The position numbers were made by a program, and so were the translations under genes. The notes below the pieces were generated by a model that had not been told where the DNA came from, did no database searches, and saw only the letters and a list, made by a program, of their open reading frames with translations. DNA of 64,000 nucleotides, taken from positions 62,001 through 126,000 of the forward strand of contig NZ_LGKP01000004.1 in assembly GCF_001306135.1 (NCBI RefSeq), read 5' to 3'. Numbering within the stretch: position 1 is the first letter of the stretch; every line of letters begins with the position of its first letter. Source of the DNA: Herpetosiphon geysericola (lineage in GTDB: Bacteria > Chloroflexota > Chloroflexia > Chloroflexales > Herpetosiphonaceae). Positions 6,001 to 62,236 of this stretch are shown here, one piece after another.

Positions 6001-9000
6001 ATGGCCAATCAACCAACTAGCATTGTAGTCTCGACAATTGATCCAACCTCAGGGGTGCGCTTGCTCGACGTTGGGGTTAAACGCCCAAATACAAGTAGTT
6101 ATACGTGGTCGAGCGCAGCACTCTGTGCCGAATCGCTTAGCCTCGCACGTAACGCCGCGTGGTGTTACAGTTTTGATCCAACCAGCCTCAGCGGCCCAGG
6201 CAGCTATAGCCTTCAATTCCGCGCGGTCGATGCAGTCGGCAACCAAACAATCTCGCCTGCCTATCAAATTAACATCGATCAGACAGCGCCAACTGCTGCC
6301 AGCACCTACAGCGACCATTGGCAACCGCTCGTCGCCAGTGTCAGCGATAATCTGGCATGGACAGTGGCGCTCAGCGGCACACTCAGTGATCCTGGCAGTG
6401 GCATTGATCCAAGTGCAGCGCAATTGAGCTTACTTGATAGCACAGGCGCCGTAGCTGGGCTGGATCATGCGCAAACGGTCAGCGTCAGCGGCAATAGTTG
6501 GAGCATCAATTATGGCTTTGCCAACAAACGTCCGGCGGGCCGTTATCAACTGCGTTTCAGTGTCGCCGATGCAGTTGGCAATCAATGGTTGGGGCTGATT
6601 GGCAGCATCATGCTTGATGGACGCGCGCCCACTATGGAGCTTGCGCCCGACCTGCTGGCTTCGCGGATTATCAGTACAACTCCAAGCCTGAATGGACTGG
6701 TGGTCGAACAACCACACTGGGGGGGCGAGATTGCCGCCTTCCCGTTTGCCGAAGCCAGCGGCGCGACCAGCTTTGCCGACTACTCCGCTAGCCAGCTGAA
6801 CGCAACCTGTACAGGCCAAAGCTGTCCAAGCGGCGTGAGCGGGATCTTTGGCCGTGCGCTTAGCTTCGATGGTAGCAACGATAGCCTGACCATCGCGCCG
6901 ACCACAACCATCGATCTGCACACAGCAACCCTGAGCGTGTGGATCAAACCAAGCTGGATTTCGGGCACGCTTGGCTATGCCCCAACACTTGCAGCCCAGA
7001 GCACTGCAAGCACGCCAAACTGGCGCTGGCAGATCGCGGCCAATTACCGTAGCATGCAATTAACCACAGGCAATTCAACCACCAGCCTCCCCCTGAATCT
7101 AGCACCCAACCAATGGGCACACCTTGCCTTGGTGCAAGCAGGCGATAGCTGGACAGGCTATCTGAATGGGGTTGAACTTGGCATCGTTGATCAAGCGTTT
7201 GGAACGACGATCAACCTGCCGCTGCACCTTGGCTCAAATGGCAGCAGCCAATTCTTTGCTGGCCAACTCGATCAATTCACCCTCTACGACCGGGCCTTGT
7301 CGGCGGCGGAAGTCTATGCATTGGCCCAAAGCTCGGTCGCTGGAATTAGCAATGCTCAAATCTGGCTTGCCCCCGACGAAACGATGCTACCCGCCAGCCC
7401 ACTGATCAGCTACGATTTTACCGAAGTCCCTGGCGCAACCAATTTTGCCGATGCAAGTGGCAATAGCTATCCTGCAACCTGCACCACTTGTCCAACAGCA
7501 ACCACTGGCTGGACTGATAGCGACGCACTCTGGTTTGATGGGGTTAACGATGGTCTGAGTGTAACGATTACCAACAATCTGAGCTTGGCAAACTTTACTC
7601 AAGCAGCATGGATCTACCCAACAGGCAGCGATTCAGGCTATCACGCGGTAATGGGCTATCAACCAGGTTCGCTCAATCAGCGCCGCCCACCAAGCATTTA
7701 TATCAATCAAAAGAATCGCATTCACGCAGGATTTGGCGATGGCAGTGTCTTTACATCGCTGCAAACAGGCCCAGTTTTGACCATCAATGCCTGGAATCAT
7801 CTTGCGACAACCTTTGATGGCAACGCTTATCGGGTTTATGTCAATGGCACGGCGGTCTATACCTCGACAGCGAGCGCAGGCCGCACCCCGTATCCGGTTT
7901 CCAAACTCGAAATTGGCAAGGCTGATACCTATTTCAACGGGGCCATCGATCAGGTTCGCATCTATGATCGCGCATTATCAGCCAAGGATATTGGCTTGCT
8001 AGCATCAGGCTGGACAACCGCCCCGATCACAGGGGCAAGCACGGCCAGCGCCGACTGGAACTATTCGATTCCACATGGGCTTCAAGGCTTGTATAGCCTG
8101 CGCATGCGAGGCACAGATAGCTTCAGCAATACCGAAGCGATGGCAACGAGATGGCGCGGCATGATCGATAGCATTACACCCACAATCAACCTCAGTGCGG
8201 TCCATCGCGGTGGTGGCTATGCAGCCTCAACCGTCTATACCGTAACCGCCAGCGATCTCTTCCTTGATTCTGCGACCCTTAGCATGCCATGTCAAGGGCT
8301 CAGCAGTAGCTTAACCTCCAATCCAATGGGCGGCACGAGCACACTGACGGCAACATGCAGTCTTCCAGGCCATCAACAAGGACTGGTGAGCGCAAGCATT
8401 GATGATCTAGCGGGCAATCACGCTAGTGCTTCGTTGCAGCTGCCAACCCCAACCCCAAGCCCCGCAATTGTGATTACCGCACCATCGAGTATCATCACAG
8501 GGACGGCACCGATCAGCATCACTGGCGGAGCGTATGCGCCTGCTGGCATTCAACAAATAACAGTCGTTATCGCTGGAAATAGCGTGGCTACCCTACAGTT
8601 TGGTACGGGCGTTACAAATACCCTCTGGGCAACAACGTGGCAGCCACAAGCAAGCGGTCGCTACACGTTGACTACTATGTTGATGGCAAATGATGGTAGC
8701 ATCGCTAGCGATAGCATGAGCATCACCGTGCGCGACGCGTATCAGCTACAGGTTGATCGAGACGGGAGCGGCAATGGTCAGATCATCAGCACGCCCACAG
8801 GTATTGATTGTGGCAATCTGTGTGCAGCCCTTTTTGCAGCCAGCACGATAATCACGCTCACCGCAACGCCGGATGCAACTTCGGTCTTCAGTGGCTGGAG
8901 CGGCGCGTGTAATGGCCAAACAAGCTGTATTGTGACCATGAATCAGTCGCAGCATGTGACCGCAACCTTTGAGGTAAAGAGCTACCCACTCAGTGTCGAT

Positions 9001-9558
9001 TTCGCAGGCGATGGCGCTGGCACAATTACAATCATGCCAGCAGGCATCCAATGTACTCGCCAAACCGCCCCATGTTTGAGCATGGTCAATGCAGGCACTG
9101 TCGTGACCATCACCGCCGCGCCAATGCCAAATACACGTTTTGTTGGCTGGAGTGACGATTGCAGCGGCACAACGATCCTCTGCATCCTACCGATCAATCA
9201 GGCGCGTCAGGTGACAGCTAACTTTGCGCTGCTTCCACCAACTGTCACCCCAACCATGGCCCCGACGAGTACCGCAACCGCGACTCCAACAGCCATGCCA
9301 ACCACAACCAGCACGCCAAACCAGCTACCGACCTTAACAACAACCGCTCTTCCATCAAGTTCAGCAACAGCAACCCTGACTGCCATTGCGACGGTCATAC
9401 CAAGCGTTTCAGCAACGGCAACAACCAGTCCAACCAGTTCCGCAACCATACCCGTTCCGAGCACACCAACCCACACGCCAACGGCAACAATAACTCCCAG
9501 CATGGTTGCGCCAAGTTATCGCATCTATCTTCCAATGACGATCCATGGAACCCCATAA
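1..9558 (+). CDS. Giant secreted multi-LamG surface protein (5' end outside window)
   Basis: The frame is open from base 1, so the N-terminus is missing; 3185 codons are visible. The first part has hydrophobic segments (about 120-210 and 240-400). Next come acidic DxDxDGxxD thrombospondin type 3-like calcium repeats (1012-1360). About eight LamG/concanavalin-like jellyrolls follow, near 1480-2075, 2220-2800, 2820-3470, 3490-4090, 4300-4945, 5390-5905, 6720-7325 and 7410-8005. Most carry an FDGS[ND]D start and an [RS]VDG/YVNG strand. Two InlB-like repeats with GWSGxC/GWSDDC lie at 8740-9225, then a Pro/Thr-rich stalk (9235-9500). The protein ends in YRIYLPMTIHGTP, resembling the LPL-type tails of many Chloroflexota exported proteins. 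Likely an extracellular adhesin or carbohydrate-binding surface protein. The substrate cannot be told from sequence. The first and last jellyrolls are most alike, suggesting internal duplication. Confidence 0.9.
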   Translation, partial: NAATVVGVGLYIANMVHKFYTLYQTGMGVSAVLKSTTMANFKAVGKFGLLLGVLIPWIIFLATSGDVLWSMITTGDGGSIAFTVYVAYTIASTIITVVMFALEYVPGIGQLFSFLFFMVYFIDGILAIVGQQTVFDRMTEALAKLLYDVDLVIKNMDSSDRLTLDIVNRSLGTPEDGFIVTNSISYTMRVTNTLLYGTQYSAADANKASFLYTLDDEPVDYHTQINKGDMRGDWVAIGGRKIQLTKTIESVEALALTRVGVGINRSLDGLLYLSEAYQVPYSGCWLDLFSCSTETVGGSSEINIGASETLDILPASISEFYALDWNEDGALQFPSQRDHDGDGLLSSAAGGVDPEDLSRDADGDILLDSYELAQGSDPEASDSDGDGLDDARELSLGTNPLRNDSDGDGLDDKTESTTGWIISYSDTADNRRYTRVWSNPNVGDIDDDGLNDLQEFVYGFNPWVATDASLIDNLVQFAEMNVQETAAATVLLRLEEPADATVFANSASATSFNCASTATCPIAAQSGRYGTAANFDGSNDYLEASVQLNPTAYTQAAWVYPTSSDTNFHGIVGYDNGVLAQRAPSIYLFQAGRVQVGFGDGSTWNSLSISSAMLSSNTWNHIASTFDGSTMRIYINGVEQANSTAASGKVPYPISNLRVGRIDNYFKGTIDEVSLFDRALSASEVVALKDGRYNPNDLIVQPGAALQYSTNVTNTLAAQGIHGHLLGSTSTSDPVVAEPKIALRFEDADRKSGFSPASGESEAATCVGTTCPASDLVSGSDRSLAFDGVDDLLSIGTLAYETAFQASSFSFNVKLNAWPSAGKTMSLIATDPTQTYGLNVSVNSSGKLMVGLNDVNPALTGGITMPTNTWITITVTVNDKQLRVYQNGTLDSGLNNNLRLRLVVGAGTLGNSIDGTSPLHGNLNAISIINNNAETVFALGFDENNSSLRTSFVNTASGGSTVTCASAATCPSLTAGATNEGLWFDGSDDYLPLPATVSNAAGTSGSLSFKLKLTTLPASGSYYYLLDNGCSSSAGAGYCLRAFVDSAGLVTLGLINRSTTNIAFGPFATTAAGGFSGKLGSWVTVTISWNLAAAAGATSSFSIATTYNGTTTTASSSGTSTYWPLITTDSNARFGRRGGGGMPLNGALDDFIATSYALNFDQPSFNVEQINRVNAGRVAACRAFYSCPTSTSAGKFGAALRFDGSDDYMVLDHTLADDFSIAFWMQTSQTTGSASAWWQGNGLVDGEVSGNGNDFGIALGDGGKVLFGIGNPTASDTTIKGGSVANGSWHHVVATRVKQSGAMRLYIDGTLVASGTGNTASLSAPPFLRLGMIQTGYNAYAGLLDEVVLLPAAVDLAGAQLLMQTTYPMIEFANAVTTFQLNALSASTLSAAASVSSNAVTSRHTFTQEVEAAIDLQSAIAYPVTDSNAASMPLLMPFEEVPGETIFNNYGTLTGYSQSNDMKTPTCYSTIGCPTTGMQGVVGRAAWFNGSGDWLSCTYAGVLGLPCGLSEINIRSVAAWVKADRGTIADFRNSLGSSGLELDYNSFKVTINGTTYRIAIDLPENEWVHVAATVDLTSRIAKVYVNGALYGSTSLGSSGTYEGSFPSIGANRAGTFGNLGADGDFFHGAMDDLRGYTITLSASQIKQLYTESAPTMAFDFNADSSNASSVHDTSVNGYPGVLRGSFCNTVTLDSADFSNFGADGINIRLESTDQLILSIPLIATAVQQLNVSVPICGMDSLRIEQIASNAAISYYGTASFNPTLSGTTASVIIGSYPIDHMVLNYRYATPTSSSAPSLTDGKIGQTMTFGGAGAIEVQSPTTVSALTSTFSLIGWINPDDIAGFQQIIASGTDASSNNGFSLELNDNTLQFRTLGVKTYASSASVRAGIWQHIAVVFDSNYDALFYVNGALQATIDGSAVAKANTDDPTYLGGSASTIGVLQNFFRGQLDELAIYDRQLTTGEIYGIYLRDLRWYSARSTVELQVDTDAPSITLLSDAAYMANQPTSIVVSTIDPTSGVRLLDVGVKRPNTSSYTWSSAALCAESLSLARNAAWCYSFDPTSLSGPGSYSLQFRAVDAVGNQTISPAYQINIDQTAPTAASTYSDHWQPLVASVSDNLAWTVALSGTLSDPGSGIDPSAAQLSLLDSTGAVAGLDHAQTVSVSGNSWSINYGFANKRPAGRYQLRFSVADAVGNQWLGLIGSIMLDGRAPTMELAPDLLASRIISTTPSLNGLVVEQPHWGGEIAAFPFAEASGATSFADYSASQLNATCTGQSCPSGVSGIFGRALSFDGSNDSLTIAPTTTIDLHTATLSVWIKPSWISGTLGYAPTLAAQSTASTPNWRWQIAANYRSMQLTTGNSTTSLPLNLAPNQWAHLALVQAGDSWTGYLNGVELGIVDQAFGTTINLPLHLGSNGSSQFFAGQLDQFTLYDRALSAAEVYALAQSSVAGISNAQIWLAPDETMLPASPLISYDFTEVPGATNFADASGNSYPATCTTCPTATTGWTDSDALWFDGVNDGLSVTITNNLSLANFTQAAWIYPTGSDSGYHAVMGYQPGSLNQRRPPSIYINQKNRIHAGFGDGSVFTSLQTGPVLTINAWNHLATTFDGNAYRVYVNGTAVYTSTASAGRTPYPVSKLEIGKADTYFNGAIDQVRIYDRALSAKDIGLLASGWTTAPITGASTASADWNYSIPHGLQGLYSLRMRGTDSFSNTEAMATRWRGMIDSITPTINLSAVHRGGGYAASTVYTVTASDLFLDSATLSMPCQGLSSSLTSNPMGGTSTLTATCSLPGHQQGLVSASIDDLAGNHASASLQLPTPTPSPAIVITAPSSIITGTAPISITGGAYAPAGIQQITVVIAGNSVATLQFGTGVTNTLWATTWQPQASGRYTLTTMLMANDGSIASDSMSITVRDAYQLQVDRDGSGNGQIISTPTGIDCGNLCAALFAASTIITLTATPDATSVFSGWSGACNGQTSCIVTMNQSQHVTATFEVKSYPLSVDFAGDGAGTITIMPAGIQCTRQTAPCLSMVNAGTVVTITAAPMPNTRFVGWSDDCSGTTILCILPINQARQVTANFALLPPTVTPTMAPTSTATATPTAMPTTTSTPNQLPTLTTTALPSSSATATLTAIATVIPSVSATATTSPTSSATIPVPSTPTHTPTATITPSMVAPSYRIYLPMTIHGTP

Positions 9559-10362: not shown

Positions 10363-11556
10363 TTAGGCGAGTTGCGCGGTTGGGCGGCGCGGGCGATTGT
10401 TGAAGTAGAGCACCAGCCAGCAAACCAGCGTAAAGACCGCCAAGGCCACAAAACCATAACTAAACGAGCCAGTTTGTTGGCGAATATAGCCCAACAGCAA
10501 TGGCGGAAAAAAGCCACCCAAGCCGCCAGCAGCACCCACTAAGCCAGTCACAATTCCAACTGATTGCGGGAAATACTCAGGCACTAATTTGAAAACTGCC
10601 CCATTGCCCAAGCCAATTGCCGCAGCCATGCCCAATGCGCCAATTGTAAAAGGCACAACATTGTTGAAGGCCATCAAGCCAGCCATACAGGTGGTGATCG
10701 GAAATACCCATTTCAAAATGGTATTACCGCCAACTTTATCGGCCAAAATCCCGCCAACTGGGCGTAACGCCGTCGCCACTAGCACAAAGCCAGCGGTACG
10801 CAAACCTGCATCGGTTTTGCTCAGGCCAAATAAATCGGTCAACAAAGTTGGCAAATAGACCGCCATGGCCACAAAACCACCAAATGTTAGAAAATAGTAC
10901 AAACTCAGAATCCAGCTTTTGGGGCTGCTCATTGGCTGCAAAATTTGGCTTAGGCTTTTGACTTGGCCTTGGCGCGGCGCATTGCGGGCAAAGAACATAA
11001 AGCACATCAGCCAAACCACAGTCAAGGCCGAAAAAACCCAAAAGCCCCATTGATAGCCCAAGTTGGCCGCCAATACTGGCGCACCAAACGCCGCCAACGA
11101 TTGGCCTGCATTGCCAGCACCATACACCCCCAAGGCAAAACCTTGGCGTTGCGGCGGATACCAACCACTAACAAAGCCAACCCCAACCGAAAAACTCGCC
11201 AGCGCTAAGCCACAACCAAAGGCCGCAATCAGCAATTGATTGTAACTTTGCACCCAGCCCATGCCAAGCGATGGGATAATCGCGCCAGCCATCACAGCAC
11301 TAAACACGATCCGGCCACCATAGCGATCAGTCAACATCCCCAGCGGAATCCGCCCTAAACTACCAAGCAGCACGGGTAAGGCCAGCGCAATGCTGACCTG
11401 AACAGGCGTGAGATTCAAATCAGTTTTAATTGTTGGCATCATGGCCGAAACCGAGCCAAATATTGCAAAACAGACGGCAAATGCGCCGGTTGCGAGAATC
11501 AGTTGGCCAAGATTGCCACGGGGTTGGCCCTCGTTGGCCGTTGCTTGAGCATTCAT
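10363..11556 (-). CDS. narK: Nitrate/nitrite MFS transporter, NarK family
   Basis: A 397-residue, twelve-helix major facilitator protein. Two glycine-rich nitrate-signature segments are visible: [11 protein letters not shown] after the fifth helix and [14 protein letters not shown]...GAAGGLGGF in the second half. The loop between helices two and three carries [10 protein letters not shown], the MFS signature. It is expected to import nitrate or export nitrite at the cytoplasmic membrane. The start at 11556 has TAGGAG seven bases upstream; a start at 11589 would overlap the preceding gene and has no such site. It is the last gene of the minus-strand nitrate operon, directly before a terminator. 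Specificity for nitrate is inferred from the signatures and from the adjacent molybdoenzyme. Confidence 0.9.
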
Positions 11557-11569
11557 TGCAAGGCTCCTA

Positions 11570-11800
11570 TCAGTTGGGCTTTCGATCAAGCTTGTAGAGA
11601 AATCTCAGCAAGCCAAGGTTGAGCAGCAAACAGATGCAGCTAAAAATCAGGGCTGGCAGGGGCACACCACTATCACCACCAAGATACGAGTTCATGGTGG
11701 CGGTCAAGAGCCAAAGCTGCACAATATCGATGATCAACACAATGCTCAAAATGCCATGGACGATGGTCATTTTTTGCTGGCGAGGAAAACGTTGTTTCAT
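11570..11800 (-). CDS. Small two-helix membrane protein of the nitrate operon
   Basis: A 76-residue protein with two predicted membrane helices (about residues 13-36 and 48-68), the conserved-looking segment [11 protein letters not shown] between them, and a basic tail. It resembles a small uncharacterised family (possibly DUF6755) that I associate with respiratory or assimilatory gene sets; this recognition is uncertain. Its ATG overlaps the stop of the Rieske gene in an ATGA arrangement, so the two are translationally coupled. It may be a small membrane partner of the Rieske protein or the cytochrome. Confidence 0.7.
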
Positions 11801-12342
11801 ATGCTGCGTAGCTCCACGGCTGTTGCAAAAATCTCATCACCACGCACTTCGAGCTGAATCCTTGGCAATGGGCGTTGCGGCGGTCCGGCGAGTGGGCGAC
11901 CTTCAGCCAAGCTAAACGAGCCATTATGGCATGGGCAGCCAATCTGGTTTTCGGCAACGTTGGGAATCACGGCGCACGAAAGATGGGTACATTTTTGGCT
12001 ATAGGCCAGCAAGGTATCAGCATCGGGGCGCACCAAAATGCATGGCTCATGCTCGTTGGGATAGTGGAACACCAAGGTGCCGCCAACCGGAATCTCGGTA
12101 AGGCTGGCAATTTTTTGGGCTGGTGGTGGCGCTGCTTGGTTGCGCTGCCAATTTTTAAACAAAATCCAAAATTGGCCTGCACTAAATGCCGAGCTAATCA
12201 GCACCAAAAATTTGGCAAATTCCCGCCGCGAAACATAATTATCTTGGGCAACATCAATCGGAAAGTCTTGCCGCCATTGCGGCTGTTCGCTCAATGGCAA
12301 GCCATCGGGTGCAAGCGAAAGTTCATCGTGGTCGCGAGGCAT
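11797..12342 (-). CDS. Membrane-anchored Rieske [2Fe-2S] protein with Tat-type signal
   Basis: A 181-residue Rieske protein. The cluster motifs are C118-T-H120-L-S-C123 and C136-P-C138-H139, so all four ligands (C118, H120, C136, H139) and the disulfide cysteines (C123, C138) are present. The N-terminal region carries SRREFAKFL followed by a hydrophobic helix, a good twin-arginine motif with an uncleaved anchor. The Rieske domain should therefore fold in the cytoplasm and be exported. The start at 12342 is chosen because AAAGGA lies ten bases upstream; the ATG at 12351 is only one base from it. The gene lies between the ferredoxin and NarK genes, implying an electron-transfer role in the same pathway. 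Which donor it uses is not shown. Confidence 0.88.
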   Translation of the reverse strand: MPRDHDELSLAPDGLPLSEQPQWRQDFPIDVAQDNYVSRREFAKFLVLISSAFSAGQFWILFKNWQRNQAAPPPAQKIASLTEIPVGGTLVFHYPNEHEPCILVRPDADTLLAYSQKCTHLSCAVIPNVAENQIGCPCHNGSFSLAEGRPLAGPPQRPLPRIQLEVRGDEIFATAVELRSI

Positions 12343-12392
12343 AATCAGCATGTCCTTTCAATTTCAGGTTTTAACAAACAGCGTTTGGTGGC

Positions 12393-13013
12393 TTATTCGT
12401 CGTGCATCATCAAGAAAATATCGTGGCCGCTGGTGTGATCATGCATAGCCGAAAGCACGTCAATGTGTTCTGGGTGGGCTGTTCGCGGCACCATCATGTG
12501 GACTTTGGTGCTAATTGTTTGCTGACCAAATTGAAATTGATTGACTGGCATTGAGCGAGGACGTTGGGCTTCGATTTGCTCGCGTGTGCCATAGTATAAA
12601 GCACCGCTTGGGCAGACCGAGGCGCACATCGGTGCTTTTCCTATCGAAGTTCGGTCATAACACATATCACATTTCATCATCAGTTCAGCGCCACTATTCA
12701 TCTTGGGCACGCCAAACGGGCAGGCCAGCACACAGTTGTTGCAGGCAATACAGCGTGGTTTTCGCGCAGTTTGCACCACGCCATCGGGCGTTTTCTTAAT
12801 TGCATCAGCAGGGCAAACCTCGGCACACGTTGGCGAATCGCAGTGCATACACACCACAGGCGCAGTTTGGGTCGAATAATGCCGATTCACAAATTCAAGG
12901 TGAATCATGGCCTGACCTTTGTGCGTGTCGCACTCGCTACAGGCTTGGACACACGATTGGCAGCCGATGCAACGGCTAGGATCGATAAAAAATTCATACT
13001 GGGCTTCAGGCAT
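12393..13013 (-). CDS. Four-cluster [4Fe-4S] ferredoxin subunit (DmsB/NrfC type)
   Basis: A 206-residue protein with four cysteine groups: [37 protein letters not shown] and [21 protein letters not shown]-type spacing. This is the standard layout of the electron-transfer subunit of molybdopterin oxidoreductases (DmsB, NrfC, PsrB, NarH-like). It has no signal peptide, so it should work in the cytoplasm. AGGAG precedes the ATG by a suitable distance. It sits directly downstream of the molybdoenzyme (nine bases between them) and upstream of the Rieske gene, so it probably passes electrons to the catalytic subunit. The His-rich C-terminus ([16 protein letters not shown]) is unusual. Confidence 0.9.
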
Positions 13014-13022
13014 GGCAGGCTC

Positions 13023-15269
13023 CTATTGCTGAGGCTCAAGTTGGCTAGCATAGGCCGGTGCTTGGGTCGCTTTGATCAAGCGCACCGCACAAACCTTGTA
13101 CTCAGGAATTTTCGAAATTGGGTCTTGAGCGGCGATCGTTAGGCGATTGATGCTCTTTTGTCCAGCCCAGTGATAGGGCACAAAAATCGTATCTGGGCGA
13201 ATCGTGCGCACAACTTGCGCCCGCAAAGTGATTTCACCGCGCCGCGTTTGGGCCGTCACCCAATCGCCTTCTTTGATGTTGAGCCGCAGCGCCAGTTGCG
13301 GATGCAGCTCAATTCGTGGCTCGGCATATTGATCAACCAACGGGCCAATGCGGCGGGTTTGGGTTCCCGAAAGGAAGTGGCTAATCACGCGGCCAGTCGT
13401 CAGCATCAAGGGATATTCTGGATCAACATCTTCGGCGGGCGGCGTGTAGGGCGCAACATTGAAGCGCGCTTTGCCATCAGGGAAGTAGAACGGGCCAGCG
13501 CCTTTGGCAACTGGATTCCAAGAATTTGGCTCGAACAGACGCGGCGTTCCCGGATGATCATCGCTAGGGCACGGCCAGAACACTCCATTTTGGGCTTCAA
13601 TTTTTTCGTACGTAATGCCTGAATAATCGGCAACTCCACCTTTCGAAGCGCGGCGTAATTCCTCAAAAATCGCTCGTGGCCCATCGAAGGTAAAGCCTTT
13701 GCTACGGCCCAAAGCTTGGGCAATATCCTGAATGATGCGCCAATCTTGGCGAGCCTCGCCTGGGCATTCAATTGCTTGATTAATTTTAATCACCCGACCT
13801 TCTGCTTGGGTCACCGTCCCTTCATCTTCCTCTTGTAGCGAGCCAGGCAACACAATATCAGCATGACGCGCGCTATCGTTCAAGAAGAAATCGATTGAGG
13901 TGTAGAATTCCAGTTTATCGAGCATCGCGCTGACGTAATCGCTATCGGGCAGCGAAACCTTGGGATTGAAGCACAAGCTCAGCAAGCCTTTGATCTCGCC
14001 AGTTTCGATTTTGCGAAAAATTTCGTAGGCATCAACCCCAGGCTGCGGCATTTCCTCGACAGGCATATCCCAAATGTTGGCAATATGTTGGCGATGTTCA
14101 GGGTTGGCCAAATCGCGCCAGCCTGGCAATTGGTCGCATTTTTGGCCATGTTCGCGGCCACCTTGGCCATTAGCTTGGCCAGTAATCGTGGCATAACCAC
14201 AATTTGGCCGCCCGATACGGCCCGAGGCCAGCACAAGGCTAATCGCGCCCAGCACGTTTTGCACGCCATGGGTGTGGTGCTCAATGCCACGGGCGTGAGT
14301 CATAAACGAGGTTTTGGCCGTGCCCCACCATTCTGCTGCTTGTTGAATGCCCTTTTCAGCAATCCCTGTCACCTCGGCAGTGCGCTTGGGAGTCCAATCG
14401 GCAACGTGTTCGGCTACTGCTTCAAAGCCAACCGTGTGATTGTTAATAAATTCATGATCAAGCCAATCGTGTTTGATCATGAGGTGCAAAATGCCGTTGA
14501 AGAGCGCAATATCGCGGCCTGGTTTAATTGGCAAATACAAGTCGCAAGTACGGGCAATCGGTGTGATGCGCGGATCGACGACAATAATTTTGGCTCCGTT
14601 TTCGCGTGCCCGCCAAACATAGCTGGTGGTGATTGGCGCACATTCGGCCACATTCGCGCCGCTAATCCAAACCACATCGGTGTGCAGCATATCGTCCCAT
14701 GCGTTGGCGGCGCGGTCGATGCCGAATGATTTTTTGTTGGCAGCGCCAGCACTGACCATGCACAAGCGCCCGTTATAATCGATATAGGGCGTTTTGAGGC
14801 ACATGCGGGCAAATTTGCCCATCAAATAGGTTTTTTCGGTGGTCAAACTTGCGCCAGAGAGAATCCCGAAGGCGCTGTTGCCATATTGAGCTTGAATGCG
14901 GCTAATTTCATCAGCCACGCGCTGAATTGCAGCATCGTAGCCGATTGGCCGAAAACCGCCGCTACTGGCTGGATCACGCTCCAAGGCGGTCAACAAGCGG
15001 TCGGGATGCGCTCCTTGCAAATAGCGTTTTACACCTTTGGGGCAGAGCATCCCTTGATTAAACGGGAAGTCATACCACGGCTCAAAGCCAATCACAGTAT
15101 TATCTTTGACTTTCAGTTGAATGCCACATTGCTGGCCACAAAAGCAACAGTGGGTTTTGACCAAGCGATCTGGCTCAACGCCAGCCTCAAGCCGTTGGCC
15201 TTGGGCGTGGGCCACATGCGGGCCATACGCTGCAATCATCTCTAGTTCAGAACGGGGAAGCTGTGCCAT
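13023..15269 (-). CDS. Molybdopterin oxidoreductase, NasA/NapA-like nitrate reductase
   Basis: A 748-residue bis-MGD enzyme. The N-terminal [4Fe-4S] site is C41-x2-C44-x3-C48-x27-C76. The likely molybdenum ligand is C170 in NGRLCMVSA, as in NapA/NasA nitrate reductases rather than the aspartate of NarG. The C-terminal dinucleotide-binding domain begins near [20 protein letters not shown]. No Tat signal is present, so it is cytoplasmic and best matches an assimilatory nitrate reductase. GAGGAG lies eight bases upstream of the ATG. The NarK gene in the same operon supports nitrate as substrate. The formate dehydrogenase FdhF-like family is related, so formate or another oxyanion cannot be fully excluded. 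Confidence 0.88.
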
Positions 15270-15289: not shown

Positions 15290-16444
15290 CTAAAAATGCA
15301 GATTGGCCTGATCTTCATGGCCAAGCGGGCCTTCGCTAATGACGGGGTTACCAAAGCGCGGGGCGGCTGGTTGCTCGTGCATGCTCGAAAACATTTGATC
15401 GCCAAAATTGCCTTGCCACTGTTTGGTTTGGGCCAAAACGAACATCGCGCGGCGGCATGGCGGGCAAATCCATTGATAATGTTCGACTTCGCCCGCAACT
15501 TCGTAGCGAAAACCAAGTTGCTTTTGCACGCTAATCAAATCTTCGACGTGCATGCGCGAGGAATAAGCTTCGCCACAACGGCGGCAATGGGCTTGCTCGC
15601 TGGTTGCGCCTGCATCTTTATAGAAGGTTGCGCCAAGCTGAGCGGGGCGCTGGAAGATGTGAAAAAACTTGCCAAACGGCATATACAGCAAGGTGAAAAT
15701 CACCGTAATTGCGTGCAGAATCGCAATAAAATCGAAGGCATAGCCACGCATCCAGGTGTAGCTGGCGGTCAGCATCACGCCAGTCACGCTAATCGCAAAC
15801 AGCAGAATCAATGGCAAAATATCTTCAACAAATTGCTGGACTGAGGCCGCGCCATGGTCGCGCATGCGCCGCCACATCGCCAACATCACGCCGAAAATCA
15901 CCGCGAACGACGACCAAACCAAGCCATGAAACATCAAAAAGGCAAAAATCGAATCGACGGGAAAGTCGAAGAGCGCAAAGCCAAACAGATAGGCTCGATA
16001 CGAATCTAATGAGCCGGGCACGCTGGCAAAGTGCAGCCAGCCAAAAACTAAGGGAAACGTGATTGCGACAGCGACAATGCAGCCCCACATAATGAACCAG
16101 TGGGCCAGCCAGCGCAGCTTGCCACGCTTCCAAATAAAGCGATTAGCGGCAAAATCGCTACTGGTACGGGTAAATAAATTGCGAATGTTGGTCAATAAGC
16201 GCTGGGGTTTGAAAAACATTTGCCAGCCGCGTTTCCAATACATGGCGGTTGGCGGGCGTTGCAGCCACATCGTGTAGCGGTAGGTAATGCCAAAGGTGGC
16301 AAAAAGCGTGGCAAAGGTATACGCGACAAGGGCTGCATCAAAATGCGCCAGATCGCGTGAACCAACCGCAATCATAATCGCAAGACTGATCGTTGTCATG
16401 CAGCCCCAAAGCAGTGCTTTGCGAACGGGGTGGCGTTTGACCAT
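15290..16444 (-). CDS. b-type cytochrome membrane subunit with C-terminal Cys4 ribbon
   Basis: A 384-residue membrane protein of the NarI/DsrM/HdrE-like type with about six helices. Histidines fall within or at the edges of helices ([30 protein letters not shown]) and are candidate haem b ligands. The soluble C-terminal domain has CRRCG and CPPCR, a four-cysteine rubredoxin- or zinc-ribbon-like site. It probably takes electrons from the quinone pool for the adjacent iron-sulfur and molybdenum subunits. The start at 16444 has AAGGAG six bases upstream; an upstream in-frame ATG at 16504 lacks one. It is 20 bases upstream of the molybdoenzyme gene. Confidence 0.83.
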
Positions 16445-16569
16445 CGGGTGCTCCTTGAACCAAAACGACACTGTTGTTTTAAGTTGGCACATTTGGGGAT
16501 TCACTAGCAGGGTACTTGCTAGCTCTCCACAACAATGTAATCAGCTAAATACCTGTGGTTAGAAACTCC

Positions 16570-17346
16570 TTACAATGCAGTAATTAATGTCAGATAGGCT
16601 TGCTTGATGTGGCCTAACGACTCAAACGAATAGCCTTCGTCGCTGAGGGTTTCGTGCAAAATCACCGGAATTCGGTCGGTCACACCAATTAAATAGCTCG
16701 TTGGCGGCAACCGTTTGAGCGTGGTTATGGTGCGGACCATCGGTTCTGGCGGCTTAAGTCCACGATTATCCAAAACAACACATGGCTTAGCCGGATTGAG
16801 TTGGTTGGATTGTTGGGCTTCGTTGTTGGCAACGCGCCCAATAAAAACCAACCAATCATCGCTGGTATGTTGATAGGCCCAAGCTTGGTAGCCACGCCGC
16901 GCAAGCCATTGATACAGCGGCACTGGCTCGAAACCACTGCGCAACAGCAAGAGCTGATCGGCGGCAAGGGCAAGGGTTGCTGGAGTAATGAGCGCCAGTG
17001 GATTTTGGGCATTTGCTTGGGCTTCACGCACATCAAGCAGCGCTGTAATGTGGTGCAAGTGCAGCCAAGCTGGAGGAGTGGTTGGATCGGGCTGCTCAGC
17101 AAAATCTTCGGCAAGTGGCGTACCCGCAACAGGATCAGGTTGGGCTTGATTGAGCGCTTGCAGCAAGCGCGCAGGCTCAATCTTGGCAATTTGGGCTGCC
17201 TGTTCAACCGTAACCATGCGCGCAAACACCCGCCGCAACAGCGGATTGCGTAGCCGTTGAAAGGCTGTATGTTGGGCCACAAACACCTCAAGCAAATTGG
17301 GATAGCGCTTGAGAATATCGGCAACCGTCATTGTAGCAGTAATCAT
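16570..17346 (-). CDS. DUF1858/DUF2249-type protein, nitrogen-oxide metabolism associated
   Basis: A 258-residue soluble protein. Its N-terminus, MTVADILKRYPNLLEVF, is typical of the DUF1858 domain found in ScdA/RIC-like and hybrid-cluster-associated proteins. The middle (LHLHHITALLDVRE) and the later segment with FEPVPLYQWLARRGY look like DUF2249-type modules. Such proteins often accompany nitric-oxide or nitrite-related genes. The start at 17346 has GAGG five bases upstream; the longer open frame to 17448 runs through the inverted repeat of the promoter and is not likely to be used. It is the first gene of the minus-strand nitrate operon, 125 bases ahead of the cytochrome gene. Confidence 0.75.
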   Translation of the reverse strand: MITATMTVADILKRYPNLLEVFVAQHTAFQRLRNPLLRRVFARMVTVEQAAQIAKIEPARLLQALNQAQPDPVAGTPLAEDFAEQPDPTTPPAWLHLHHITALLDVREAQANAQNPLALITPATLALAADQLLLLRSGFEPVPLYQWLARRGYQAWAYQHTSDDWLVFIGRVANNEAQQSNQLNPAKPCVVLDNRGLKPPEPMVRTITTLKRLPPTSYLIGVTDRIPVILHETLSDEGYSFESLGHIKQAYLTLITAL

Positions 17347-17411
17347 GAAAACCTCGTTGGGCTGAATGCCTTGTTTGGCGATTCTAGCTTCAGCAACGTG
17401 CTTCGGGCAGC

Positions 17412-17446
17412 GACTTTTCTCACATGACGGTGGTGTGAGAAAAGTC
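17412..17446. promoter_or_regulatory. 13-bp perfect inverted repeat in divergent promoter region
   Basis: GACTTTTCTCACA (17412-17424) and its exact reverse complement (17434-17446) flank nine bases, in the 163-base gap between the divergent starts at 17346 and 17510. The size and position fit an operator for a dimeric regulator controlling both the nitrate operon and the NnrS-like gene. It does not match the FNR (TTGAT-N4-ATCAA) or CRP (TGTGA-N6-TCACA) layouts. It could also fold as a hairpin in the minus-strand leader. Confidence 0.7.
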
Positions 17447-17509
17447 ACGCCCTTAATTAACTCAATTTGCTAGGCTCATGCAGAGGTTAATTGTTGAAAC
17501 GAGGATGCT

Positions 17510-18793
17510 ATGCATGTCCCCAGCCAAAACTATAATCATGCTCGCAACGTGTTGATTTTGCTGCTGATAGCTCAAGGCTTTCTGTTGGCTTGGGCTGGAC
17601 TACAAGCCAGCATTGCCCCGCAGCTGATTGGCTTTCCCTACAGCCCCAACATCTTAAGTTTGACCCACCTAATTACGCTTGGATGGGCGAGCTTAATCTG
17701 TTTGGCGGCCTTGTATCAACTCTTGCCAGTGCTGTTGCAACAACCCTTGCTGTGGCGCAGCATGGTCGATTGGAGCTTTGGCGGGTTTGTGCTTGGCAGC
17801 GGCATCTTCAGTTGGGCGTTTAGTCAAACGGCAACTCATTGGCTGATAAGCGGGGCTGGCTTGATGAGTATTGGCTTGGTGGGCATTTTGGCAAGCTATG
17901 GTCGCACGTTATGGCAAGCACGCCAGTGGGATGTAACGACGATTGGGATTAGTTTAGCATTAACTGCCTTGACAATTCAACTCCTGATTGGAATTATGCT
18001 TGTGATCAATCGTTCGGTCTTGCTTTGGCCAAGTTTGGTTGCTTATGGCCCACTCGGCCATGCCACGCTGGGAGTGCTCGGTTGGTTTAGCACGCTAACC
18101 TTGGCCTTGAGCTATCGATTATTGGCAATGTTCAGTTTGGCCCATGGCTACGTTTGCCGCTGGCGCTGGATTGCAGTTGTGGGCATGAACGTCGCAGCCT
18201 ATGCAACTAGCGTAGCCTTATGGCTCCAAGCATCAAACATTATTATATTAAGTTGCGCCAGTTTAATGTTGCTCAGTCTTGGAGCATGGCTGGCTGATGT
18301 GCGTTCGATTTTGCGCCATCGGATTCGCCGCCAAATCGAAGGCCCGATTAAACTGTTTATTGCTGCTGGCGTATGGCTGCTCTTCTGTAGCGGCTGGGCT
18401 TTTAGCGCAGCGTTGGGTTGGCTCCCCGGCAGCGGAGTAAAGCAATTCCAAGTTTTGTTTTTGGCTGGCATGCAAGGCTGGATTGGGCTAGCAATCATGA
18501 CGATGTTGCACAAAATTATTCCATTTTTAATTTGGATTGATCGCGCCAATCGCCCAACCCAGCATGTGCCAACCACTGCCCGCGAATTGTTCATGCCCCA
18601 CCTAACCACTACCTCAATCGCAAGTTATGGCTTGGGCAGCGGCTTGGTGATTATCGCTGTGATGATTAATAGCGTTTGGGGCTTGCGCTTGGGCAGTGGC
18701 TTGATTGCCGCTAGCGGCCTAGCACTGTTGCTCAATTGCTGGCATGGGCTGCGTACAGAACATAGAGCAAAGAACATAGAACATAGAGCATAG
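17510..18793 (+). CDS. Haem-copper-oxidase-I-like / NnrS-like membrane protein
   Basis: A 427-residue protein with about twelve hydrophobic segments. Histidines in membrane segments (LTHLITLGW, GPLGHATLGVLGW, MLHKIIPFLIW) resemble the haem-ligand pattern of CcoN-like and NnrS-like proteins. GAGG lies five bases before the ATG. It is divergent to a DUF1858/DUF2249-type gene and shares its promoter region, suggesting a role in nitrogen-oxide response or in haem-copper handling. No copper-site or proton-channel motif could be confirmed, so it is not called an oxidase. The last codons (HRAKNIEHRA) run into a repetitive intergenic element, so the original C-terminus may have been shorter. Confidence 0.75.
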   Translation: MHVPSQNYNHARNVLILLLIAQGFLLAWAGLQASIAPQLIGFPYSPNILSLTHLITLGWASLICLAALYQLLPVLLQQPLLWRSMVDWSFGGFVLGSGIFSWAFSQTATHWLISGAGLMSIGLVGILASYGRTLWQARQWDVTTIGISLALTALTIQLLIGIMLVINRSVLLWPSLVAYGPLGHATLGVLGWFSTLTLALSYRLLAMFSLAHGYVCRWRWIAVVGMNVAAYATSVALWLQASNIIILSCASLMLLSLGAWLADVRSILRHRIRRQIEGPIKLFIAAGVWLLFCSGWAFSAALGWLPGSGVKQFQVLFLAGMQGWIGLAIMTMLHKIIPFLIWIDRANRPTQHVPTTARELFMPHLTTTSIASYGLGSGLVIIAVMINSVWGLRLGSGLIAASGLALLLNCWHGLRTEHRAKNIEHRA

Positions 18794-19573: not shown

Positions 19574-19599
19574 ATCCCATCCTTACGAAATTATTTTTC

Positions 19600-19632
19600 A
19601 ATATACGTATATTACATCAATATACGTATATT
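19600..19632. promoter_or_regulatory. Twin 14-bp palindromic operators
   Basis: The perfect palindrome AATATACGTATATT occurs at 19600-19613 and again at 19619-19632, 19 bases apart centre to centre (just under two helical turns). They lie 27 bases upstream of the start of the putative regulator gene at 19573, between two minus-strand genes. This is a typical layout for cooperative repressor binding and autoregulation. Confidence 0.75.
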
Positions 19633-19661
19633 ATCAAGTAATAGTAGGATGTGGATTGTGG

Positions 19662-20332: not shown

Positions 20333-20362
20333 TTGACAATACTGTGTAATACACAGTATTAT
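20333..20362 (+). promoter_or_regulatory. PadR promoter with embedded operator
   Basis: TTGACA at 20333-20338 and TATTAT at 20357-20362 are 18 bases apart. The spacer is filled by an 11+1+11 palindrome (20338-20360) with ATACTGTGTA as half-site, the ATACT...AGTAT form known for PadR operators. The expected transcription start (about 20369) coincides with the ATG at 20370, so the mRNA would be leaderless and repressor binding would occlude the promoter. Confidence 0.8.
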
Positions 20363-20369
20363 AAAAGAC

Positions 20370-20723
20370 ATGATAGTACAAGCAACAGAACAAGAGGGAT
20401 ACGAAAAGTTATCCCAAGAATTACGCCGGGGAGTGGTGATTTTGGCGGCGCTAAGCCAGCTGCAAACGCCCCAATATGGCTACTCGCTGATTGATCGCTT
20501 GGCTGAACGAGGCTTTAACATCGACCAAGGCACGCTGTATCCGCTTTTGCGCCGCTTAGAAAGCCAAGGCTTTTTGGATAGCATGTGGAATGTCGAAGGC
20601 TCTCGTCCACGCCGTTACTATGTGATTAACGAGGCAGGTCGCACAATTCTGGCCCAACTTAGTCACGATTGGCAAAGCTTGGCCGAAGTTATGCAGCGCC
20701 TCTTGAATGATGAAGGAGTTTAA
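20370..20723 (+). CDS. PadR-family transcriptional regulator
   Basis: A 117-residue protein with the PadR winged helix: QYGYSLIDRLAERGFNIDQGTLYPLLRRLESQGFLDSMW and then RPRRYYVINEAGR. Members repress small operons, usually including their own gene and a membrane protein, and respond to a ligand or stress. No ribosome-binding site precedes the ATG and the promoter places the mRNA 5' end at or next to it, so leaderless translation is likely. The next gene starts two bases after the stop, giving a two-gene operon of the PadR-HAAS type. Confidence 0.93.
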   Translation: MIVQATEQEGYEKLSQELRRGVVILAALSQLQTPQYGYSLIDRLAERGFNIDQGTLYPLLRRLESQGFLDSMWNVEGSRPRRYYVINEAGRTILAQLSHDWQSLAEVMQRLLNDEGV

Positions 20724-27433: not shown

Positions 27434-27800
27434 GAGCAAAGGCAGAAGGCAAAATAGATGTCAGGGATGGGAGGCTATGGGCTATGGGCTATTCGGGGAG
27501 CAGCAACAGAATCCCAATCATCTGTGCCAATCTGTGGCAAAAATAAGCAGTATTCGTGGAATTCGTGGCGAAACAATGTTCTTCGCGGTTTCCATCATTC
27601 GTGGCCCTTCATGCCCTTCGTGGATCAATGCTTTAACGCAGCGGCGCAGAGAACAGATGGCTATAGACTTTTGGCTATGGGTCTAGACGAGCACCCGATC
27701 CCTAGTCCCCGACCTCTGATCCCTTGCCCTTTGACTTTTGCCTTTTGATTTGTTCTCTGTTCTTAACTTCATCCCTCATAATTCATCCTTCATCCTTATC
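27413..27800. repeat. Modular oligomer repeat element 2
   Basis: Non-coding stretch made of short recurring words: GGGATCAGGGGCCAGGGATTAGG (positions 27413-27435), AAGGCAGAAGGCAAAA, GGCTATGGGCTATGGGCTATT (27473-27493), TTCGTGGAATTCGTGGCGAAA, CCCTTCGTGGATCAA, TTTGACTTTTGCCTTTTGA (27730-27748) and TCATCCCTCATAATTCATCC (27770-27790). It begins inside the stop region of the regulator gene and ends just before the promoter of the YYY protein gene. Confidence 0.75.
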
Positions 27801-27833
27801 TTTATTTCGTTCCCATGCAAGCCAATTTTGCGC

Positions 27834-27839
27834 TATAAT
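27834..27839 (+). promoter_or_regulatory. TATAAT box for the YYY membrane protein operon
   Basis: A consensus TATAAT lies 31 bases before the ATG at 27870, placing transcription start near 27846. This argues against the upstream in-frame ATG at 27738, which lies within the repeat element. No clear -35 match is seen. Confidence 0.5.
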
Positions 27840-27869
27840 TCGCCCGTTGTTGAGTTCAGGGTGATAACT

Positions 27870-30800
27870 ATGCCACGTTTCGCTGCGCTGCGTGCCTTGG
27901 GGCGACGCTTCCCCGATTTGATCAGCTTGCTTTTATTGTTGGTAATCCTTTGGATGGCTTGGGGAGTACGATCGATCAATCGTGCTGATTGGGATGGCTA
28001 CGCGCCGCTCATCCACCCAGACGAGTATTACCTCAAGGATGCGATTACGCCCAACCTGCGAGTACCCGATTCGTTTTTGAGCTATCTCAGAACCGAATGT
28101 GAGATAGTGCAGAACGATCAAGGCGTGGCGCAGCTGAAGAATGCGCGCAATCCGGAAGAGCCTGATGTGAGCAAACAACGGCCTAGCGCAACCAGCGGCT
28201 GTAACTCACTCAACCCACGCACGATTGATCAAGGCTATGTCTATGGCTCGTTGCCAGTTGCCAGCGTGCGCTACTTAACCGAAAAATTCTACCCTGAAAT
28301 TGAACCAGATCAACTATCGAGCCGCCAAATTGCCGTGGTTGGTCGCACTGTCTCAACAATTGCCGATTTGATCTCAATTGTCATTTTGTTTTTGCTTGGC
28401 CGCACGCTCAACAGCCGCCGGATTGGCTTGTTAGCTGGCTTTTGTTTTGCCTGGTCGCCAGCGCTCATTCAACATGCTCACTTTTTTGTCGTCGATGGTC
28501 AGGCAGCGATGTATGGACTGTTGACGTTGTATGCTAGCACGCGCTTGGCCCAATCGCGCCGCTGGTGGAGCGCCGTGCTTAACACCATGTTTGCTGGCGC
28601 AGCCCTCGCCTTGGCAATTTCCTGCAAAATTACCCTCGCGCCGCTTGGCGGGATTGTTGCAATTGCAGCGATGGTGGCCTATTGGCACAACCCTGCCTAT
28701 TTGCATGGTGATCGTTCTCCTTGGGCCATGTTTGTACGCTTGCTGATTAGCAGTTTGTATGGGGTTGGCTTTGGGCTGTTGGCCTTCTTGGTTATGCTCT
28801 TTACCCTGCGCTTTAGCATGCCCGATGCTTTCAATGGTTTTTGGCCTGATAGCCGTTTCCTTGAGGCAATTGGCCGTGCTAGTGCAACTTCATCTGGTGA
28901 TGTTGACGCACCTTCATCGCATCAATGGGCTGGTCGCAGCAACTATACCTACGAATTGACCAACATGATTCGTTGGGGCATGGGTGTGCCTTTGGGCGTG
29001 GCTGCTTGGCTTGGCTGGCTGGCATTTGGGGTTGCGCTGTGGCGCGCAAAATCACGCCAGCGTTTGCTTGGCCTCGTGCCAATGTGGCTTTGGACAGGGA
29101 TTTATTTCTTTTGGCAGGGCGGCTTGATGATCAAGCCGATGCGCTATTTACTGCCGATCTATGGCCCGTTAATTTTATTTGCTGCTTGGGGCTTGATTAG
29201 CTTTGTTGATTGGGCGCGGCGCGAAGGCACACCGTTGCTATTTCGCAAAGTGCCGTTGCATGGGTTGGCAGTGGGCCTAACCAGCATGGTCGCACTGGTG
29301 ACGTTGCTCTGGGGCTGGGGTTTTAGCCGGATCTATGAGCGACCACATACCCGGATTCAAGCTTCTGCTTGGGCGCATGCTAACCTGCCGCCGGGCAGCA
29401 CCCACACCTCCGATTCGTGGGATATTGGCATTCCAGGCATGGAAAATTGGATCTGGACTGATGTGCAGTTGCCAATTGTCAATGAAAATGATGCTGGCTC
29501 GATTGAGCAAATTCTGCAAGTTGCCAACCAAGCCAACTATTTGGCCTTCACCTCGAATCGCGCCTACGATTCGCTTGATCAATTGCCGATGCGCTTTCCG
29601 GCGACGCTCAATTTCTTCAAGGGCATTTTCGATGGCTCGCTGGGCTACGAAAAAGTTGCCGATTTTAGCTCGTATCCATCGTTTTTGGGCATCAGCATTC
29701 CCGATGATCACGCTACCGAAGATTGGAGCGTCTACGATCATCCTCGGGTAACGATTTGGAAGCGCACTGAGCGCTGGAATCTTGATGCGGCGCGCCAGCA
29801 AATTTTGCGCGATGTGAATGTTGATGAAATTTATAAGCTGCGGCCTAAAGTTGCCACGCCAATGCCAACTATGTTGCAACAAACCGTGGCCGAATGGCGT
29901 GCCCAACTGACTTCTGGTACCTGGGCTTGGGTTTTCGATGGCATTGCCAATGTTGCGCCATTGATTTTCTGGGTTTTGGCGCTTGAAGTGCTGGGCTTGG
30001 CAGCGTTCGGCTTGCTCTGGCGCTTAAAATTGCCCTTGCCTGATCGTGGCTTGGGCATGGCGCGGCTGGTTGGCTTATTTGCTCTGACCTTGATTGCATG
30101 GCTGCCAGCAGCATGGCATTGGTGGTCGTTCAATCGCTTCTGGATTGCTGGGGTCTATCTGGTTTTGGTCGGCTTGGGCGGGGTTAGTTTGCTGCGTTCG
30201 CGCCACGAATTACGCTTGTGGTGGCAGACACGGCGGGCGGCAATTCTCACGTCGCAGGCGATTTACCTGGTTGGCTTTTTGATTTTGCTGACGATTCGCT
30301 ACCTAAACTCCGATTTATGGCACCCAGCCATGGGTGGCGAAAAGCCCATGAATTTGGCCTACCTCACCGCGACGCTCAAATCGGTGCAGTTCCCGCCCTA
30401 TGACCCATGGTTTGCTGGCGGCTATATGAACTATTACTATTGGGGCTATGTGCTGATGGGCACGCCAATGAAGCTGTTGGCGATTCGCCCAGAGGTTGGC
30501 TTCAATCTGGCCTTGATTTCGCTATTTGCCATGACCGCGCAACTAAGTGGCAGTTTTGGCTACAATCTGCTCTCGACGCTTGGGCGAGCCGCCAAAAAGA
30601 TCGAGCGCCGCGCCTGCGTGACGGCGGTTGGGGCGGCGGTAGCCTTGATGCTGTTGGGCAATTTGGTCCAGCCAATCTTCTATTTCAATAGTGCGCGAAT
30701 TTTGGGCAACAGCGAGTTAAGTTGGTCGAATCCTGAGCAATCGAGCCAAGGTATTTGGCTAGAAGGTGGCTCGCCGTTGGCTGATGCGGCGGCTGGCTTT

Positions 30801-45237: not shown

Positions 45238-45243
45238 CTATCT

Positions 45244-45278
45244 GCCCCTCGACTGAACTCAGTCGAGGGGCATTTTTT
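45244..45278 (+). terminator. Intrinsic terminator of the antiporter operon
   Basis: A 13-bp perfect stem (45244-45256 with 45259-45271) followed by TTTTTT, starting six bases after the stop codon. Confidence 0.93.
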
Positions 45279-47929: not shown

Positions 47930-47966
47930 AATCCCAGGATCAACAATTATAATTGATCCTGGGATT
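47930..47966 (-). terminator. Terminator of the toxin operon
   Basis: A perfect 14-bp stem (47930-47943 with 47953-47966) with a nine-base loop. On the minus strand it is followed by a T-rich stretch (CTTTATTTAA). It lies right after the stop at 47971. Confidence 0.88.
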
Positions 47967-50039: not shown

Positions 50040-50222
50040 TAGAAAAGATCAACGTGTCAGGCGAGTTACTGGGAGCAATGTTCTACTAGAATTGTAATCG
50101 TTGACATGTCACATTAAAAGTGCCTCGCTAGCATAACACACTCAATAGCTAGCTAGATTAATCGAAGCTTAAGCTTAAGCTTTGAAGAGTTAGGGTTTAC
50201 GGGCCAGAATCGTAGGCTTAAA
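50040..50222. other. Intergenic region upstream of toxin gene
   Basis: 183 bases with no open frame of note. AAGCTTAAGCTTAAGCTT at 50165-50182 is an 18-bp perfect palindrome of a tripled hexamer. Otherwise it probably holds the toxin promoter. Confidence 0.4.
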
Positions 50223-50261
50223 TAGCAACACACGGATCAAATGTTGATCCGTGTGTTGCTA
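50223..50261 (-). terminator. Terminator of the ETF operon
   Basis: A perfect 18-bp stem (50223-50240 with 50244-50261) with a three-base loop, fourteen bases after the etfA stop codon on the minus strand. Confidence 0.88.
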
Positions 50262-50275
50262 TAACCAGAAACTAA

Positions 50276-62207: not shown

Positions 62208-62236
62208 CAATTCCCTGCTGAAACAGCAGGGAATTG
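62208..62236 (+). terminator. Hairpin after the exporter gene
   Basis: A perfect 13-bp stem (62208-62220 with 62224-62236) around AAA, four bases after the stop codon. No T-run follows, so it may be a partial terminator or an mRNA 3' end protector. Confidence 0.65.

Follow-up and report, generated by a model that had tools for sequence, protein, structure and literature searches.

A candidate CRP/FNR-type operator pair at the divergent promoter of nitrate and nitrogen-oxide genes in Herpetosiphon geysericola

We analysed a window of 64,000 nucleotides from Herpetosiphon geysericola (contig NZ_LGKP01000004.1), in which an inverted repeat at positions 17412-17446 sits between the divergent start codons at 17346 (- strand) and 17510 (+ strand). 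Comparison of sequences makes it likely that the repeat is a divergent operator pair for one activator of the CRP/FNR family, probably a protein of 222 amino acids, which would induce nitrate and nitrogen-oxide genes together. The evidence comprises the anatomy and conservation of the sites, their distance to the -10 boxes, the promoters that have the element in common, the linkage of the genes involved and one correlated change in protein and DNA.

In the mechanism that we propose, each arm of the repeat together with its outer flank would accommodate one dimer on 16 bp, TGTGA-NAAAAG-TC(A/G)C. The sites would each take the place of a -35 box, with the centre approximately 41.5 bp upstream of the predicted start that belongs to it. 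From there a bound dimer, acting in the class II mode, would bring in RNA polymerase for transcription in both directions. The activator is probably the 222-amino-acid Crp/Fnr protein encoded near nirK (G000:C10:78461-79129), which would jointly turn on the nitrate operon, a gene for a 427-amino-acid protein, nirK, an ScdA_N gene and the gene of a second membrane protein. We infer the binding by this protein and the activation; the signal, judged from the targets alone, is probably nitric oxide (NO) or another nitrogen oxide.

Anatomy and conservation of the divergent promoter

The two arms, GACTTTTCTCACA at 17412-17424 and TGTGAGAAAAGTC at 17434-17446, are complementary at 13 of 13 positions, exactly as the initial annotation had it. 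The window has six places where arms of 13 bp or more pair perfectly around a loop of up to 30, compared to one in total over 12 Markov-1 simulations of 64 kb; symmetry by itself therefore does not mark out 17412-17446. It is conservation that singles the repeat out: in six genomes of the genus the 18-bp blocks at 17407-17424 and 17434-17451 do not vary at any of their 36 bases, whereas the intervening N9 spacer TGACGGTGG (17425-17433, no strand) keeps none of its nine bases. Over all remaining intergenic bases, spacer included, 72 of 125 are invariant (Fisher p 5e-8 against the blocks). Within the window the arm has no second exact copy, and the one further place found at two mismatches is at chance level. 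Other short-loop inverted repeats with perfect arms of 13-19 bp lie at 45243-45272, 47930-47966, 50222-50262, 62208-62236 and 19590-19642; some of these may be terminators.

The conserved blocks overrun the repeat by five bases on either side. Read with this outer flank, each arm is a 16-bp dyad of the CRP/FNR type, TGTGA-GAAAAG-TC(A/G)C, and the two sites face outwards. The site of the leftward nitrate operon, TGTGAGAAAAGTCGCT, occupies 17409-17424 on the - strand (centre 17416.5) and that of the rightward gene, TGTGAGAAAAGTCACG, occupies 17434-17449 on the + strand (centre 17441.5), which places the centres 25 bp apart. Both are invariant in all six genus genomes. A putative -10 box TAGAAT (17381-17386, - strand; TAGACT in four of five relatives) lies 30.5 bp from the leftward centre and predicts a start near 17374, while the putative box TAGGCT of the rightward promoter (17471-17476, + strand; TACGCT in one of five relatives) lies at 29.5 bp and predicts a start near 17483. 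No sigma-70 promoter with both -35 and -10 boxes was found in 17300-17560, and neither putative promoter has a -35 box. In class II activation the activator site is centred at about -41.5. A distance of 29.5-30.5 bp between site and TANNNT, in combination with the missing -35 box, would be the geometry of a class II activator, given the predicted starts. The initial annotation had stated that the repeat does not match FNR or CRP layouts, because it took the 35 bp as a single operator; this is contradicted by the arms, each of which reads with its outer flank as TGTGA-N6-TCRC and is spaced from a -10 box of its own as expected of class II activation.

The repeat might also act as RNA, in the form of a hairpin, terminator or attenuator, and its predicted fold is indeed stable (-29.4 kcal/mol, z -7.2). 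We consider this very improbable and rejected it: the repeat is situated upstream of both predicted starts, no terminator-like site was found, and elsewhere single arms that are unable to form this hairpin keep the promoter geometry.

Recurrence in the genus, the family and the phylum

The operator-pair reading gains from the recurrence of the element at related promoters. A genome search with TGTGAGAAAAGTCRC at up to one mismatch returned four matches at two loci in each of the six genus genomes, and no control matches. At the second locus a nirK-like gene (TIGR02376, 186 bits, where the cut-off is 296) shares its divergent promoter with a small ScdA_N gene. A relaxed search added one more site, the fifth, which is conserved at the same position in each of the six genus genomes, ahead of a membrane gene that is COX1-like (marginally below the Pfam cut-off). 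The host thus has five promoters with the site: the window pair, the nirK-like / ScdA_N pair and the COX1-like membrane gene. Two of the criteria that the initial annotation had put forward, the positions of the motif in the genome and its conservation in relatives, come out in favour of a functional element, as the recurrences are not at random positions and the arms are invariant in six of six genomes. The relaxed search also matched TTTGAGAAAATTCGC in four of the six genomes. Another candidate, TGTGACAAATTTCGC at G000:C3:21092 (six of six genomes), was not retained among the sites, since by eye it lies in what looks like an ordinary sigma-70 promoter (GTGACA-17-TATGAT).

An exact inverted repeat could in principle be a transposon end or the remnant of a miniature inverted-repeat transposable element. 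This is extremely improbable and was rejected: even with up to three mismatches allowed, the 35-bp layout occurs only once in the 6.14-Mb host genome, and it is invariant in place at orthologous promoters in six of six genomes.

The element extends to two further Herpetosiphonaceae genomes, OHK22 and KatS3mg057, which represent two sister genera. Here the sites are CRP palindromes at 9/10 or 10/10 positions, one ahead of nirK and another ahead of DUF2249-ScdA_N and DUF1858-DUF2249 genes; the sister-genus site at L066:4918 is the full CRP-type palindrome TGTGATAAAAGTCACA. Together the eight family genomes contain 34 sites (30 in the six Herpetosiphon genomes, two in OHK22 and two in KatS3mg057), all of which read TG(T/C/A)GA-N6-TC(A/G)C, the only letters that the search pattern permitted. 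In each of the 34 a TANNNT lies at 29.5 bp (29 sites) or 30.5 bp (five sites) from the centre, with varying inner letters. The next commonest distance, 34.5, is seen at eight sites, all of which also have a box at 29.5. For nine promoters of three genera, simple backgrounds give this spacing a probability of approximately 2e-11 or less, a value to be read with the knowledge that the TANNNT pattern and its two registers were picked after the first cases had been seen and that orthologous promoters are not independent.

Centre-to-centre spacings of the divergent site pairs amount to 25, 35-36 and 46 bp (window 17409-17449, L059:10929-10979 and L065:9809-9870). These spacings are about whole helical turns apart and may reflect cooperative binding. 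Such phasing would also suit the view of the initial annotation, in which the 35 bp are a single palindrome bound by some other dimer or tetramer, as yet undescribed, with the arms as half-sites, as would the perfect 13-bp symmetry and the AAAAG core, which is conserved in each arm as fully as the ends. We nonetheless judge a single operator to be quite improbable. The distance between paired sites varies between loci, and conservation runs beyond the repeat so as to complete a TCRC half for each arm. Moreover, sites that stand alone (ahead of the second membrane protein in six genomes, and both sites in KatS3mg057) have an unchanged distance to the -10 box.

We also searched a phylum sample of 301 Chloroflexota genomes, including seven Herpetosiphonaceae (two further genomes, G001 and G007, are outside the sample). 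The exact motif TGWGANAAAAGTCRC is present in all seven and in 31 others, with 35 matches outside the family. At least eight of these 35 lie within 6 kb of a homologue of the candidate regulator (p of about 1e-7 or less under simple assumptions), representing perhaps five independent cases given that some genomes are related. A regulator match at 1e-25, a cut-off that also lets in other Crp/Fnr proteins, was obtained in 25 of the 31 motif-bearing genomes, compared to 170 of the full set of 294 from outside the family (p 0.005). For 23 of the 35 outside sites the forward reading has TANNNT at 29.5 or 30.5 in eight cases, compared to approximately 0.6 per position elsewhere; in the reverse reading the count is four of 23, and one other distance (24.5) reaches three.

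Genes downstream of the outside sites, as confirmed with Pfam, include a copper nitrite-reductase-type gene (L181), NapC/NirT-type and cytochrome c552 (nrfA-type) genes (L168), DUF2249 genes (L178 and L179) and a sigma-70 factor (L175). The downstream membrane proteins of L170, L179 and L183 have no Pfam match. Weaker sites in more distant loci precede genes that Pfam assigns to NosZ (L073) and to an ScdA_N-hemerythrin-DUF2249 protein with a cupin (L079). Seven candidate sites were noted in L072, L073, L074, L079 and L116, five of them with TANNNT at 29.5 in one orientation. For regulator homologues of Desulfobacterota and Firmicutes, no motif scored above shuffles. Three small Chloroflexota genomes (L175, L176 and L177) have the motif at a distance of 380-385 bp from a Crp/Fnr homologue and ahead of the gene of a sigma-70 factor (confirmed with Pfam in L175), the TATAAT lying at 29.5 bp.

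The candidate regulator and the points against it

The gene of the 222-amino-acid protein has the fifth site on one side and the site of nirK on the other. Its product has a cNMP-binding-type domain, PF00027 (6.8e-19), and a Crp-like HTH, PF13545 (2.5e-15), each above cut-off, which assigns it to the CRP/FNR superfamily. Orthologues are present in all eight genomes examined, at 91-100% identity within the genus, 64% in OHK22 and 60% in KatS3mg057. In the latter two genomes the regulator gene is within 2 kb of nirK and of a homologue of the 427-amino-acid protein of the window; the OHK22 NirK is 68% identical to that of the host. The regulator gene and a cupin gene (L059:8021-8404) are divergently oriented. 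Cupin-like genes are also situated beside the regulator in OHK22 and KatS3mg057 (by eye) and ahead of a RIC-type gene in L079, and the cupin is a possible partner in sensing or in NO handling.

Mapped by eye, residues R180, E181 and R185 of CRP have their equivalents in the recognition helix VREMVGR. According to an excerpt of Rodionov 2005 (PMC1274295), these residues are linked to G3 and A6 of TGTGA sites, and regulators with Ser or Pro at position 180 go together with a G3-to-T change in the site (motif wyTTGACnnnnGTCAArw). A case of this sort is L116 (Anaerolineae MAG_32), where the helix reads VPDVLHR, with Pro for Arg, and TTCGACAAAAGTCGAA is found approximately 100 bp upstream of the gene. 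This site has the predicted G3-to-T change plus a T-to-C change that is absent from the excerpt, reading TTCGAC and not TTGAC.

As to the signal, the Gly-Glu stretch contacts cyclic AMP (cAMP) in CRP-type proteins. In an alignment with the closest solved CRP-type relatives, their Gly-Glu is Asn-Thr in the host regulator, and cAMP is therefore an unlikely signal. A cysteine cluster of the FNR type, as needed for a 4Fe-4S centre, is not seen either: the protein has one Cys in 222 residues (C91), which is the sole invariant Cys across the eight orthologues. DNR (3dkw; E 1.2e-26) is one of the PDB entries that the regulator profile matches, ranking behind GlxR and mycobacterial CRP-type proteins.

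Alternatively, the site type may be right but the protein that binds it a different Crp/Fnr paralogue (C43:168229, C12:339689) or more than one. Both exceed the Pfam cut-off and have Arg-Glu in the recognition helix, and the C43 paralogue is found in all six genus genomes. We regard this as rather unlikely. The neighbours of the C43 paralogue resemble a phosphoesterase and a Uma2 protein (by eye, from translations) and not nitrogen-oxide genes, whereas the favoured 222-amino-acid regulator adjoins sites in three genera.

A number of observations weigh against one activator acting through these sites. In the host genome the bare core TGTGAN6TCAC is near chance (18 matches against 14 in the control), on which ground a general CRP regulon with this core was rejected, and the relaxed search that yielded the fifth site returned mostly noise (64 matches against 41 control matches in six genomes). 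The AAAAG of the N6 core is conserved beyond what is expected for a CRP site. Arg-Glu is not restricted to the favoured regulator, being carried also by C43:168229 (31% identity, six genus genomes) and C12:339689 (24%). Enrichment across the phylum is modest, with 35 outside matches compared to 15 in the reversed control; six of the 31 outside motif genomes are without a regulator match at 1e-25, and 145 outside genomes have such a match without the motif. Furthermore, -10 boxes are absent in 15 of the 23 forward readings and at L074 and L072b, and some downstream genes have no nitrogen link (for example the LysR regulator of L165, identified by eye). Only L074 and L079 of the 46 more distant loci beat all 20 shuffles; the sites of L116, L072 and L073 do not. 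The L116 change is a single case chosen from weak matches, with a score below the shuffle maximum, even if its -10 box is at 29.5.

Known systems and neighbouring genes

The regulon proposed here is of a known kind, of which HcpR, DNR, NnrR and CRP are examples. HcpR of Desulfovibrio and relatives has the consensus wTGTGAnnnnnnTCACAw, the recognition residues R180/E181 and, in some species, dnrN among its targets, as described in the excerpt of PMC1274295. It is likewise a CRP/FNR-family regulator of nitrogen-oxide genes, and the host TGTGA-N6-TCRC comes close to the first form of HcpR site given in that excerpt, with TCRC for TCACA. In contrast, the host has a fixed AAAAG core, and its targets are nitrate-reductase-type, nirK, ScdA_N and DUF1858/DUF2249 genes. 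We do not file the host regulator as HcpR because no hcp gene was found in the host genome (no PF03063 match).

The targets are also of the same kind as those of DNR and NnrR in Proteobacteria, and DNR is among the PDB matches mentioned above. The DNR consensus is of the TTGAT type. That of NnrR is ctTTGcgnnnncgCAAag (excerpt of PMC1274295); the host sites differ in being of the TGTGA type, with Arg-Glu as recognition residues.

Class II sites of Escherichia coli CRP, TGTGA-N6-TCACA, are centred about 41.5 bp upstream and overlap the -35 position. Here the difference lies in the protein, the host regulator having Asn-Thr where CRP-type relatives have Gly-Glu.

A fourth parallel concerns Thermus, where DnrT is a Crp/Fnr protein. 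As reported in an excerpt of PMC6282519, nitrate-reductase expression is affected by DrpA (DUF2249) and DrpB (one DUF1858 and two DUF2249 domains), and the drp genes in turn depend on the master regulator DnrT for their expression. The likeness to the host, across phyla and by domain content, is that of a DUF1858-DUF2249 gene at a nitrate-respiration locus.

We found no description of such a regulon in Herpetosiphon or Chloroflexota in the literature searched, the coverage of which was incomplete and excluded regulon databases. The main text of PMC8756737, on nitrite reductases in Chloroflexi, has no mention of Crp, Fnr, Herpetosiphon or binding site. The suggestion in the initial annotation of an undescribed nitrogen-oxide regulator stands in part: a regulatory element is very probable and not found described in that literature, but its regulator most likely belongs to the Crp/Fnr family rather than to a new class. 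Members of Chloroflexota carry nirK, nosZ and nrfA (here L059, L073 and L168), genes for which no regulator was found described for the phylum in the same search. Motif, candidate regulator and promoter geometry make the question of their regulation directly testable, and the finding connects DUF1858/DUF2249 (Drp-like), cupin and unnamed membrane proteins with nitrogen-oxide handling. As a speculative extension, which we hold to be possible though doubtful, Chloroflexota might own a subfamily of CRP/FNR nitrogen-oxide sensors that is neither heme-DNR nor FNR-like and that reads the A-tract core in TGWGA-NAAAAG-TCRCA besides the usual halves. At divergent promoters the helically phased pairs (25, 35-36 and 46 bp) would then position two dimers and two polymerases on one face of the DNA, firing the nitrate and NO-handling arms together.

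The leftward run of genes in the window, all on the - strand, starts with a DUF1858-DUF2249(x2) protein of 258 amino acids (16570-17346), the domain order of which is that described for Thermus DrpB in the excerpt of PMC6282519. It is followed by a 404-amino-acid protein of no clear family (15290-16504), a molybdopterin nitrate-reductase-like subunit (13023-15269; best NCBIfam NasC, 784 bits, below the cut-off of 1100), a 4Fe-4S ferredoxin-type electron-transfer subunit (12393-13013), a Rieske iron-sulfur protein (11797-12351) and a NarK-like transporter of the major facilitator superfamily (10363-11589; 220 bits, below the cut-off of 311.7).

On the other side lies the gene of the 427-amino-acid protein (17510-18793, + strand), homologues of which are encoded within 2 kb of the regulator gene in two sister genera. 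The initial annotation placed the repeat between the nitrate operon and an NnrS-like gene, which is correct in position; the NnrS label itself is unsupported, as a Pfam search up to E 0.1 assigns the protein to no family, NnrS (PF05940) included. The best NnrS match of the genome is a distant paralogue of this protein (E 0.076, below cut-off); the 427-amino-acid protein itself may have a distant, unrecognised kinship to NnrS. G007, the ninth family genome (76% complete), has no match to the 427-amino-acid protein.

Elsewhere in the window, an inverted repeat at 20333-20365 (TTGACAATACTGTGTA / TACACAGTATTATAAA, 88% complementary) is positioned directly ahead of a PadR-family gene at 20370 and looks like an autoregulatory operator overlapping the promoter of that gene. 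Very long open reading frames flank the region at 13-9558 (3181 amino acids) and 27738-35660 (2640 amino acids).

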